This document shows, piece by piece, positions 24,004-43,527 of a DNA stretch of 43,829 bases (position 1 is the first letter of the stretch; every line of letters starts with the position of its first letter). The notes under the pieces were generated by a model, which was given only the letters and a program-made list of their open reading frames with translations, made no database searches and was not told the origin of the DNA. The position numbers and the translations under genes were made by a program. The DNA is from Candidatus Magasanikbacteria bacterium CG1_02_41_34 (GTDB taxonomy: Bacteria; Patescibacteriota; Patescibacteriia; Magasanikbacterales; UBA922): the NCBI GenBank assembly GCA_001871445.1, contig MNVD01000020.1, positions 1-43,829 on the forward strand. Direction: 5' to 3'.

Positions 24004-24128
24004 TAGAAAGCTTAGGATGCTTAGAAAGCTTGGAAGGCTTAGAAAGCAACTATTTCAAAATAATATGTGGATTGATATAAACAGCATTCTAGGCTTTCCA
24101 AGCCTTCTCGGCCTTCTGAGCCTTAAAG
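24004..24128. repeat. Inverted pair of 9-bp tandem arrays
   Basis: Left GCTTAGGAT/GCTTAGAAA/GCTTGGAAG/GCTTAGAAA; right (opposite strand) AAGGCTCAG/AAGGCCGAG/AAGGCTTGG/AAAGCCTAG. Confidence 0.75.
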
Positions 24129-31448: not shown

Positions 31449-33326
31449 ATGATCGCCGAAATCATTCCAATCAAACGCCTGCCACGCCGATTCTCACATT
31501 TTGATTATACTGTTCCAGAAGATATCAAAGAAAGAATTACACCCGGGCAGCTGGTAAAGATACCGCTTAAATCGTCCGAAATATTCGGGCTTGTTTTATC
31601 ATTGAGAGAAAAACGTGCGTCTGATACGAGCGCACTCAAAGAAGTAATTGACATTATCCATGAAACACGAATAGTATCAACCGCACATCTCGAACAATTG
31701 AAAGTACTCTCCGAATGGTACGGGGTCTCATATGGAACACTGACAAAAATGATGCTGTTGCCACTGCAAAAAAGAAAATTAAAAACAATTACGTTGGGAG
31801 GCATACTCACACCAGTAAGTAATCTGGTACACAAGCCGACATTCTCCCACTATGTAAATGAAAAAGAGCACAAAGACATGCTTACTAGCCAACTTGAGTA
31901 CTTGAATACAAAAGAACAAATTGCCATAATTGTTCCCGAAATACAATACATCGACACTATTCTTTCGTATCTCAACGAATACGAAGAAAATATCGTTGTC
32001 TGGCATAGCGGACTGTCTACCAAAGAACAATTTGAACGGTGGCTACAGATACGCAATGGAGAAAAACATATTATCCTAGGTACACGTGGAGCACTTTTGC
32101 TACCATATTTCAATCTGAAAAAAATTGTCATCGATTACGAACACAAAGACAATCATAAACACTGGGATCAAGCTCCAAGATTTCATGTAAAAGATGTTGC
32201 TGAATTACTTCGAACGAGGCACGGTGTAGACATACATATGATGAGTTTCTCTCCGAGTTTGGAATCATATTTTCATATACACAAACATCAATATGCATCC
32301 GAAACAGTAGACATCACTCCTTTCTTAGATTGCCACATTGTCAATATAAGCGACGAACGAAGGGGAAGAAATTTTTCCCCTATTTCTGAAAAACTCGAAC
32401 AGCAATTACTCGCCCTGCAGGGAGATGCATTTCTCTATCTCAATCGCCTTGGCCTTGCCACGTATATTGGCTGCAATAGCTGTGGCTGGCGTGCGACATG
32501 CCCAAGCTGCAAACTTCCACAAATCCTGCATGAAAAAAATAAGCAACTCACCTGCCATTATTGCAAAACAGCAGCGTCACTTCCTACGATATGTCCGAAG
32601 TGTAAAGAAACCATTGTCACAATATCAGGTGTAGGTACAGAAACGGTAGAAAAATTACTGATCGATTTCGTAAAAGAACACAATCTTCCGCATCAAGTGA
32701 TTCGCGTAGATAGCGAAACAAATTCCCAAACTGCCCAGGTACTTAATTTCCCTATTATCCTCATTGGAACTGACACAGCATTTCCATACATAAATTGGCA
32801 AAAGACTGATCTCGTCGCCTTCCTTGACATAGACATGCAACTTTCGCTGCCAGAATTTCGAGCTCAAGAATCGCTTTGGCATTTGTTGCGAGAAGTACAC
32901 TATCACAAAAGAGCAGACGCACAGTTTTTCATCCAAACACGTGAACCAACACATATATTATTCAAATCACTTGAAGAACCAGATCGATTCTACCGTACAG
33001 ATCTCAATCATAGGATGAAACTCGGCTACCCACCATACAAATATTTGGTAAAATATTTTTATGGCCATGCGAATTTTCTCGAAGCAAAAAAAGTAATGGA
33101 AACAAGTGTCGTCGTACTCAAAAAACGATTGAGAGAACAACACAAAGATATAGAGCTTACCGATAGCTTTGATATGCACCCACGATATTATCGCGGACGA
33201 CATTGGTTTGCGGTCATGGCACGTCTCTCTCCTGAATTGTGGGAGGAAGATCTCGTCTGGCTCAATGCCCACATTCCAGACACCTGGAAAATTGACCCAA
33301 ATCCCATTTCTATTTTGTCACCATAA
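31449..33326 (+). CDS. priA: PriA-like primosomal protein N' (degenerate helicase motifs)
   Basis: N-terminal 3'BD-like; Zn cluster CNSCGWRATCPSCK...CHYCK...CPKC; GVGTETVEKLL; IVIDYEHKDNHKHWDQAPRFHVKDVAELL. Confidence 0.88.
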   Translation: MIAEIIPIKRLPRRFSHFDYTVPEDIKERITPGQLVKIPLKSSEIFGLVLSLREKRASDTSALKEVIDIIHETRIVSTAHLEQLKVLSEWYGVSYGTLTKMMLLPLQKRKLKTITLGGILTPVSNLVHKPTFSHYVNEKEHKDMLTSQLEYLNTKEQIAIIVPEIQYIDTILSYLNEYEENIVVWHSGLSTKEQFERWLQIRNGEKHIILGTRGALLLPYFNLKKIVIDYEHKDNHKHWDQAPRFHVKDVAELLRTRHGVDIHMMSFSPSLESYFHIHKHQYASETVDITPFLDCHIVNISDERRGRNFSPISEKLEQQLLALQGDAFLYLNRLGLATYIGCNSCGWRATCPSCKLPQILHEKNKQLTCHYCKTAASLPTICPKCKETIVTISGVGTETVEKLLIDFVKEHNLPHQVIRVDSETNSQTAQVLNFPIILIGTDTAFPYINWQKTDLVAFLDIDMQLSLPEFRAQESLWHLLREVHYHKRADAQFFIQTREPTHILFKSLEEPDRFYRTDLNHRMKLGYPPYKYLVKYFYGHANFLEAKKVMETSVVVLKKRLREQHKDIELTDSFDMHPRYYRGRHWFAVMARLSPELWEEDLVWLNAHIPDTWKIDPNPISILSP

Positions 33327-33339
33327 GAGGATGATGCAT

Positions 33340-33768
33340 ATGAAAGTAACGCATGTATATACCACAAGCCACACAACAAACGCTCCATATCCGATGTTTG
33401 ATTCTCCCGTCTCTGCGGGATTTCCTTCGCCTGCTGATGATTATATCGAGCAAGATATAGATCTTCATGACTATCTAGTAAAGAATCCGCCAGCGACGTT
33501 TCTAGTGCGTGCAGAGGGAGACTCTATGGAAGGAGCAGGTATTTTTTCAGGAGACATATTAATTGTAGACAAATCTCTGTCACCGCTGCATGGCAATGTG
33601 GTGATTGCCGTAGTTGATGGAGATCTCACAGTAAAACGATTGCACAAAACAACAAAAGGCATTATCCTCGTCCCAGAAAATGACAGATACTCCCCTCTCC
33701 ATATTTCCAATGAAGAAGAACTCACTATCTGGGGGGTTGTAACGAATGTCATTCATTCATTGAAGTAA
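33340..33768 (+). CDS. umuD: DNA polymerase V subunit UmuD (S24 autoprotease)
   Basis: SPVSAGFPSPADDYIEQDIDLHDYLVKNP, VRAEGDSMEGAGIFSGDILIVD, VIAVVDGDLTVKRL. Confidence 0.92.
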   Translation: MKVTHVYTTSHTTNAPYPMFDSPVSAGFPSPADDYIEQDIDLHDYLVKNPPATFLVRAEGDSMEGAGIFSGDILIVDKSLSPLHGNVVIAVVDGDLTVKRLHKTTKGIILVPENDRYSPLHISNEEELTIWGVVTNVIHSLK

Positions 33769-33773
33769 AAATT

Positions 33774-33822
33774 TGTTAATTGTTAATTGTTAATTGTTAA
33801 TTGTTAGTTGTTAGTTGTTAAT
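33774..33822. repeat. Seven-copy heptanucleotide array between umuD and umuC
   Basis: TGTTAAT x4, TGTTAGT x2, TGTTAAT; ends 4 bp before the umuC ATG. Confidence 0.97.
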
Positions 33823-33826
33823 TGCC

Positions 33827-35077
33827 ATGTACGCTCTTGTCGACTGTAACAATTTCTTTGTATCCTGCGAGCGCGTGGTCAATCCAAAGCTTGAAGGAAA
33901 ACCAGTCGTTATATTGTCAAACAATGATGGCTGTATTGTGGCACGATCAAATGAAGTAAAAAAACTGAGTGTTCCGATGGGAGCACCGTATTTCAAATGG
34001 AAAGAATATTTACAACGCCACAACGTCCGTGTATTTTCTTCCAACTATCTTCTCTACGGCGATATGTCTGGTCGCGTGATGGAAACACTAGAAACATGTC
34101 TCCCAAATATTTCTATCTATTCCATAGATGAAGCCTTTGCCGATGTGTCAGGCGTAAAAGATATCCAATCACTCGTAGAAGAAACAAAACAAATAGTCAC
34201 ACAGTGGACTGGTATTCCCGTCTCAATCGGTGTCGGCCCAACAAAAACTCTTGCAAAGGCAGCAAACGAACTCGCAAAAAAACATGCAGAACATAATGGC
34301 ATCTTAATTTTTGAAACAGCCGAAGCAGCAGTCCCCTATTTTTCAAACATTCCCGTGCAAGATCTCTGGGGTGTAGGGAGAGCCTTTGGAGAAAAGCTCC
34401 CACGCCTTGGCATTCATACTACAGAGGATCTCTTGAAAAAAAATGATGTATGGATAAAAAAAGAGCTTGGCACACCAGGGCTCTCACTCGTGCATGAATT
34501 GCGTGGAATTGAAAGCACATCCCTAGATCATCATAGTGATATGAGAAAATCTGTCATTCGCAGTCGTTCCTTTGGGACACGAATAACAGAAAAAAAAGAT
34601 ATTATCGATGCGCTCACCTACTTTGCCGACCGCGCAGCAAAAATGCTTCGTGACGAAGACCTCCGTACACATGTCATCCGTCCATTTTTCATGACATCTC
34701 AATTTTCTCCAGAGAGATATTATGCATCAAAAACAATTGCACTTGATGAAGCCACAAATGATAGCCGGATGTTGATACAACATGCAATTGATGTCGTAGA
34801 AAAAACATTCAAACCAGGATTTCACTATGCAAAAGCAGGTATTGTCTGCACCGATATCGTTGACGATGCACATTATCAAAAAAGTTTATTTTCAAGTGAA
34901 CGAATTGAAGATACCGCCGTTATGAACGCATACGACGCTATCAAACAAAAATATGGGCCATACAGTATCAATATCGGCAGAACGAGTGAAGATAAAAACT
35001 GGCACATGAAACGAAACCTTCTCAGTACTCCCGAACGAAAAAATATATCGAGTGTGCCGACGGCGTTGTGCAAATAA
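33827..35077 (+). CDS. umuC: Y-family DNA polymerase V catalytic subunit UmuC
   Basis: MYALVDCNNFFVSCERVVNPKLEGKPVVILSNNDGCIVARSNE; YSIDEAFADV. Confidence 0.95.
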   Translation: MYALVDCNNFFVSCERVVNPKLEGKPVVILSNNDGCIVARSNEVKKLSVPMGAPYFKWKEYLQRHNVRVFSSNYLLYGDMSGRVMETLETCLPNISIYSIDEAFADVSGVKDIQSLVEETKQIVTQWTGIPVSIGVGPTKTLAKAANELAKKHAEHNGILIFETAEAAVPYFSNIPVQDLWGVGRAFGEKLPRLGIHTTEDLLKKNDVWIKKELGTPGLSLVHELRGIESTSLDHHSDMRKSVIRSRSFGTRITEKKDIIDALTYFADRAAKMLRDEDLRTHVIRPFFMTSQFSPERYYASKTIALDEATNDSRMLIQHAIDVVEKTFKPGFHYAKAGIVCTDIVDDAHYQKSLFSSERIEDTAVMNAYDAIKQKYGPYSINIGRTSEDKNWHMKRNLLSTPERKNISSVPTALCK

Positions 35078-42402: not shown

Positions 42403-43527
42403 CTACGCAATCACTCCACCACCGAGACACACTCCTTCTTTATATAACACTGCAAATTGCCCTGGAGTCACAGCCCGTTGTTTGATTTCAAAATCAAGTT
42501 GCAATTTTCCATTCTGCATTCTACATTCTGCATTCTGCAATGATTGTCTATGGCGTAGCCTTACTTGACAGTGTAGTGGAAATTCTGGGGCTTGTCCACT
42601 CACAAAGTGAACATTTGTTACACGTATTTCTTTCTTATAGAGCAAAGCACTTTCTTCATTTCCAACAACCAACTCATTATTCTCAAAACGTTTTTCCAAC
42701 ACATACATCGCAGAACGATTTGTATCTTGTGTCTTACTATTTGTGAGTTGCCCAACGTGTCGCTGCCCTATCGTATAAAAAGAAAGCCCCTCATGTTCAC
42801 CAACAACAGTACCATCTTCTGTAACAATATTTCCAGGCTTTTTACTAATTTTTTGCTGCAAAAAATCTTTCATCGGCATTTCACCGACAAAACAGATGCC
42901 CATACTCTCTGCTCGCTCTGCGGTAGGCAAACCAAACTTTCGAGCCAACTCACGAACTTCTGTTTTTGTATATTCGCCAAGCGGAAACATTGTTCTGGAT
43001 AATTGCTCTTGTGTGAGCTGGTGTAAAAAGTATGTCTGATCTTTGTCTTCATCCTTTGCAGCACGTAACACATAACACATATCACGTATCACTTCTTCCT
43101 GCGACGTGTTACGTGTTACGTGATTCGTGCTACGTGAAATACGTGCGTAATGTCCAGTCGCCATTGCATCAAACCCCATTTCCAAAATTTTCTTGAGCCA
43201 TGCATCAAATTTAATAAACTTGTTGCACATCACATCTGGATTTGGTGTTCGTCCAGCTTCGTATTCTGCAAACATATACCCCATCACCCACTCTTTATAT
43301 TCTTTTTCAAAATCAAGCGTCAAGAGTGGAATTCCCAGATGCGCTGCCACACGCATGGCATCCCGACGATCTTTTTTCCACTCACAAAGACCTGATATAT
43401 CTTTTGTATCAGACCATTGTTTCATATAGGCGCCAGTAACATCATATCCCTGATGAACAAGCAGCGCGGCAACAACAGAAGAATCAACACCGCCACTCAT
43501 AGCAACGAGGACTTTTCCTTTTTTCAT
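42403..43527 (-). CDS. mnmA: tRNA-specific 2-thiouridylase
   Basis: VLVAMSGGVDSSVVAALLVHQGYDVTGAYMKQW; NPDVMCNKFIKFDAWL; GHYARIS; ESMGICFVGEMPMKDFL. Confidence 0.96.
   Translation of the reverse strand: MKKGKVLVAMSGGVDSSVVAALLVHQGYDVTGAYMKQWSDTKDISGLCEWKKDRRDAMRVAAHLGIPLLTLDFEKEYKEWVMGYMFAEYEAGRTPNPDVMCNKFIKFDAWLKKILEMGFDAMATGHYARISRSTNHVTRNTSQEEVIRDMCYVLRAAKDEDKDQTYFLHQLTQEQLSRTMFPLGEYTKTEVRELARKFGLPTAERAESMGICFVGEMPMKDFLQQKISKKPGNIVTEDGTVVGEHEGLSFYTIGQRHVGQLTNSKTQDTNRSAMYVLEKRFENNELVVGNEESALLYKKEIRVTNVHFVSGQAPEFPLHCQVRLRHRQSLQNAECRMQNGKLQLDFEIKQRAVTPGQFAVLYKEGVCLGGGVIA
42510..42537. repeat. Heptanucleotide tandem repeat in mnmA (distal)
   Basis: CATTCTG CATTCTA CATTCTG CATTCTG. Confidence 0.9.
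43062..43138. repeat. Inverted pair of heptanucleotide arrays in mnmA (proximal)
   Basis: CACGTAA CACATAA CACATAT CACGTAT ... ACGTGTT ACGTGTT ACGTGAT TCGTGCT ACGTGAA. Confidence 0.88.

Follow-up and report, generated by a model that had tools for sequence, protein, structure and literature searches.

Is the heptamer array between umuD and umuC of Candidatus Magasanikbacteria bacterium CG1_02_41_34 a switch for a mutagenic polymerase? A first-pass annotation of the stretch of DNA analyzed here (43,829 nt; hereafter, the window) had raised this suspicion, and the data described below turn it into a question about a general class, that of oriented heptamer arrays at gene boundaries.

Genes and array of the umuD-umuC junction

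All features of the junction lie on the plus strand. umuD, encoding the autoproteolytic subunit of Pol V (33340–33768), ends with a TAA stop codon at 33768 and is followed by a 58-nt spacer (33769–33826) and by umuC, encoding a Y-family polymerase subunit of 416 amino acids (33827–35077; ATG at 33827). The gene identities given by the annotation agree with both Pfam and NCBIfam. UmuD matches Pfam Peptidase_S24 (1.5e-31) and, above cut-off, NCBIfam NF007621 (7.7e-49). UmuC has the Pfam domains IMS, IMS_C and DUF4113, and its best NCBIfam match is NF002955 (Pol V UmuC; 2.8e-101), but this match falls below the curated cut-off. A gene that we call priA-like from its encoded sequence in the list of open reading frames (31449–33326) lies 5' of umuD across a 13-nt spacer, and the two genes are apparently in one transcription unit. 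This synteny is kept in two congeners, G001 and G003 (the source genome being G000). No promoter-like match towards umuC was found near the array, and the match count for this region lay within 1.5 sd of shuffles. An internal umuC promoter within the array was therefore rejected.

The array itself spans 33773–33824, with its TTGTTAA sense towards umuC. TRF reports a period of 7, 7.4 copies of TTGTTAA/TTGTTAG, 95% matches and a score of 90, the highest in the window. From umuD to umuC, the spacer consists of AAAT, four TTGTTAA units, two TTGTTAG units, another TTGTTAA, TTG and CC, followed by the ATG. Both the spacer sequence and the TRF copy number thus confirm an array that fills the spacer, and no SD-like motif was found in the spacer 5' of umuC. 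The array had been said to end 4 bp before the ATG, which holds if the unit is read in the phase TGTTAAT; in the TRF phase the distance is 2 nt. Our counts for G000 rest on 165 kb of sampled stretches and those for the congener G002 on 140 kb, with pattern searches in addition. Period 7 was the commonest in the sampled G000 sequence, with 8 arrays at a score of at least 15, as compared with 0–2 for each other period from 5 to 12. At a strict threshold, we observed 5 period-7 arrays in the 165 kb versus 0.0 in first-order Markov resamples, which excludes a chance origin of the array.

Since the array sits between a stop codon and a start codon, slippage cannot shift a reading frame. The sampled G000 sequence shows no enrichment of SD motifs: SD-like 4-mers occur at −20 to −4 of 11 of 115 called genes versus 9 of 115 control positions, the corresponding values for G002 being 13 of 107 genes and 19 of 107 controls. 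Hence, the absence of an SD before umuC is uninformative by itself, and it leaves slippage with no SD-start distance to alter. A search for 16S rRNA found none in the assembly. The base at −1 of start codons is T in 85% of G000 genes and 79% of G002 genes, and in 18 of 19 rpsG starts (L129–L157), the exception being a G007 gene called at an internal ATG.

The junction compared between congeners

Among the 144 relatives searched, UmuC is found at high identity only in G000, G001 and G003, all remaining matches being at most 33% identical; in the closest named genome, Candidatus Magasanikbacteria CG_4_10_14_0_8_um_filter_42_12, it is 91% identical. A umuDC pair directly behind priA (33340–35077 in the window) is rare in the lineage, in that 3 of 144 relatives have a high-identity UmuC, and is likely a late acquisition in the genus.

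The annotation had called for repeat counts in related strains. In the congeners, with one genome per species, the umuD-umuC spacer measured 16 nt in G001, 58 nt in G000 and 127 nt in G003, with about 1.4, 7.4 and about 8 heptamer units, respectively. The unit number therefore changes between species. As had been proposed, the distance from umuD to umuC varies, at least from species to species, but its variation brings no frame change. In G001, the umuD stop codon is followed by AATTGTTAATCTCAAT and the ATG, so that the junction holds a single unit in its 16 nt. The array of G000 does not quite replace a junction, as the annotation had put it; the sequences suggest that a short spacer was expanded or received an insertion, and the single unit of G001 may be the seed or the remnant of an array. 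The G000 spacer exceeds that of G001 by 42 nt, which equals six units and may be chance. In G003, about eight TTGTTAR-type units adjoin the ATG, and a second heptamer family, GTAAATG-like, adjoins the umuD stop codon. Both long arrays, those of G000 and G003, have diverged units in which TTGTTAA and TTGTTAG are mixed.

The spacer 5' of priA varies as well, from 16 nt in G000 and 23 nt in G001 to 180 nt in G003, and the G003 spacer carries heptamer-like arrays in inverted order at its two ends. Spacers in the umuD-umuC/priA neighborhood gain arrays readily. We also compared the rpsL-rpsG spacer in the four congeners. It holds TTGTTAA units in G000 (L129), repeats like a 9-nt unit of the AAGCATTAT type in G001 (L132) and G002 (L131), and a pattern different from all of these in G003 (L130); the position of spacer repeats seems to persist while the repeats themselves are replaced. 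Functional conservation of the array before rpsG was considered and rejected, as the array is present in G000 and in G061, a member of another family, and absent in the three congeners.

A family of oriented arrays

TTGTTAA-family arrays, with a degenerate unit of about TTGYTHR, were found by pattern search in 34 of the 144 relatives. We fetched about 60 array neighborhoods, picked by pattern hit with no use of context. Gene calls were home-made; because the codon-model caller put the umuC start 48 nt off, start tests were run directly on ATG-opened ORFs, which had to be of at least 60 codons and to start −3 to +12 nt from the array end. A start codon was found at the TTGTTAA-sense end of 28 of 67 intergenic arrays and at the other end of 3 of 67 (P = 2.4e-7), and a stop codon preceded the array in 16 cases for the TTAACAA sense and 6 for the TTGTTAA sense (P = 0.03), these P values treating arrays as independent even though some share related genomes or one inverted pair. 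An independent count gave the same trend (start codon at 29 versus 6 ends among 81 arrays). The TTAACAA sense thus tends to lie behind a stop codon or to overlap it, and the TTGTTAA sense adjoins start codons, at an array-to-ATG distance of about 0 to 10 nt. So strict a start-codon polarity exceeds what neutral tolerance alone explains.

In 18 of 22 arrays with an inverted partner, the order is (TTAACAA)n-loop-(TTGTTAA)n; the remaining 4 are adjoining composites, all in one genome. Twelve of the inverted pairs fold with z-scores of −2.6 to −9.7. The G000 umuD-umuC junction has the start-side TTGTTAA part alone, with no inverted partner. The genes directly 3' of arrays include rpsG, rpsL, rplT, fusA, efp, ileS, metG, trpS, secF, rsmH, ahcY, uvrA and an RNase J gene; these serve housekeeping rather than contingency functions.

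Genes themselves contain about 27 arrays, 25 of the 27 in the TTAACAA sense, which encodes hydrophilic peptides. Among them are in-frame arrays in conserved enzymes (L056 827–858, L069 3415–3445, L071 1495–1525, L073 1493–1522, L075 1477–1510, L076 1494–1527, L105 1498–1528 and L118 1503–1532). Judging from their sequences, the enzymes look like the products of valS, ileS and pheT, with peptides such as QLTINNEQLT, and the valS-like and ileS-like array sites look alike across different families.

Comparable arrays are known from other bacteria. TAACTGA direct repeats occur in Beggiatoaceae, some Cyanobacteria and Bacteroidetes; in Beggiatoaceae, forward arrays most often end 1 nt before a start codon where SDs are rare, are also found in ribosomal protein operons, and run in reverse orientation inside ORFs (MacGregor, 2015; PMC4679880). 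The TTGTTAA arrays resemble them in being scattered over the genome, oriented, a few nt from start codons with SDs largely absent, and placed before ribosomal protein genes; in-ORF arrays are likewise reversed, and the forward array has stop codons in all three frames. By contrast, the unit here, read in the same phase, is TAATTGT/TAGTTGT rather than TAACTGA, and inverted pairs are common, whereas they are almost absent among TAACTGA arrays, for which one indirect repeat has been reported (PMC4679880). Xanthomonas GGGAATC arrays, mostly of four units, form 70 inverted pairs in one genome and 75 in another, with one strand near stops and its complement near starts, and their length varies between related species (PMC4692102). 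Neither the genes near these arrays nor those near the GGGGA(C/T)T arrays of Nostoc, one of which separates pecE from pecF within an operon, show a functional bias (PMC4692102). The TTGTTAA family shares the inverted pairs, the length differences among related species, the lack of a functional gene bias and the stop/start strand polarity of GGGAATC, with the start-side array standing alone at umuD-umuC. Unlike the G-rich GGGAATC and GGGGA(C/T)T units, which form quadruplexes in vitro, its unit is AT-rich and has one G (two in TTGTTAG), the Gs never being adjacent, so that there is no G-tract. Like the STRR (short tandemly repeated repetitive heptamers) of cyanobacteria (Calothrix; as cited in PMC4692102), the arrays are dispersed tandem heptanucleotides; the STRR, whose origin is given as unknown, have other unit sequences.

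At least three heptanucleotides stand in tandem at umuD-umuC, and related arrays are found at numerous sites of this genome as well as in relatives. The arrays are best filed as a Patescibacteria member of this dispersed heptamer-array class, and not under TAACTGA or GGGAATC proper, because of the differing unit and the missing G-tract, respectively. Literature searches that covered mostly open-access papers returned no report of comparable arrays in bacteria of the candidate phyla radiation. The arrays of Magasanikbacteria and relatives unite stop/start polarity of the Xanthomonas type with start-codon anchoring of the Beggiatoaceae type. The same polarity thus recurs with unrelated units in distant phyla, and small genomes without SD enrichment are well suited to testing it.

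Readings of the array and other repeats in the window

We consider it probable that the array represents one member of a lineage-wide, dispersed heptamer family, that it is tolerated at this junction and that its effect on umuC is modest and quantitative, with no on-off switching. The array would have arisen in a short spacer, either by growth or by insertion followed by trimming, through slippage or recombination at heptamer units. Its tolerance could be understood if initiation is independent of an SD and the last few bases before the ATG alone matter. The effect on umuC is probably small, and might come from the longer stop-to-start distance and the U-rich, weakly structured leader. Most likely, then, the mutagenic polymerase is not under the control of a switch formed by the array. 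If it were a contingency junction, unit slippage would switch or tune umuC against umuD, and cells would alternate between mutator states. Slippage is a general liability of tandem repeats, and as in phase-variable simple sequence repeats, the array is a tandem repeat beside a gene with a unit number, and here a spacing, that differs between congeners. However, in a contingency locus a change in unit number alters a frame or the spacing of a promoter or SD, and the umuD-umuC array affects none of these. Its units are imperfect, and their divergence argues against fast on-off slippage. The phase-variable junction had been presented as a property of an error-prone polymerase operon, but the same family stands before essential housekeeping genes across the order. 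Phase variation was judged unlikely on the same ground for the heptamer arrays of Xanthomonas and Nostoc (PMC4692102), and we regard it as highly improbable at umuD-umuC.

Tolerance alone leaves the polarity unexplained, and for this reason a small place must be kept for function in translation. Without an SD, the U-rich TTGTTAA strand before the AUG could recruit ribosomes via an RNA-binding protein such as S1, at a rate tuned by copy number, and umuC would be one of many such genes. The strict orientation, the closeness to start codons and the lack of SD enrichment are consistent with such a leader, as is the translational role proposed for the Beggiatoaceae TAACTGA arrays, which share its position and SD-poverty (PMC4679880). 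On the other hand, the array is not kept at the same gene, since rpsG has it in G000 and not in three congeners; umuC of G001 has one unit only; about 27 arrays lie within genes; and the distance to the ATG varies. We therefore regard a leader function as unlikely, and give the same low credence to the broader proposal that TTGTTAA-sense arrays are a recurrent initiation leader of SD-less Patescibacteria, with copy number as the knob, that arose independently of TAACTGA in Beggiatoaceae. Paired arrays might instead form an intercistronic hairpin that brings the upstream stop and downstream start codons close together, coupling translation or protecting the mRNA. The folding of the inverted pairs agrees with this, and in isolation the G000 array forms a fold of its own (z = −3.0). 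At umuD-umuC, however, there is no inverted partner; with 30-nt flanks the fold of the G000 array is not significant (z = −0.55), the G003 spacer is less structured than shuffles (z = +1.1), and the G001 spacer has nothing to fold. RNA structure is not conserved at this junction, and folding of the three orthologous spacers rules out hairpin coupling as the main explanation there; as an account of the array, the hairpin is improbable.

Other repeats were observed in the window. mnmA (minus strand) contains in-frame arrays of a CATTCTG unit and of inverted CACGTAA/TACGTGT units (42495–42539 and 43062–43136), the array at 43062–43136 coinciding with an indel in a loop. In the G001 ortholog, a TTAACAA-type array sits at yet another position of mnmA (L065 16589–16620). 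Two 9-nt arrays, at 24004–24047 (TAGAAAGCT type) and 24083–24124 (AGCCTTCTC type), are near-inverted, in a layout like that of the heptamer pairs.
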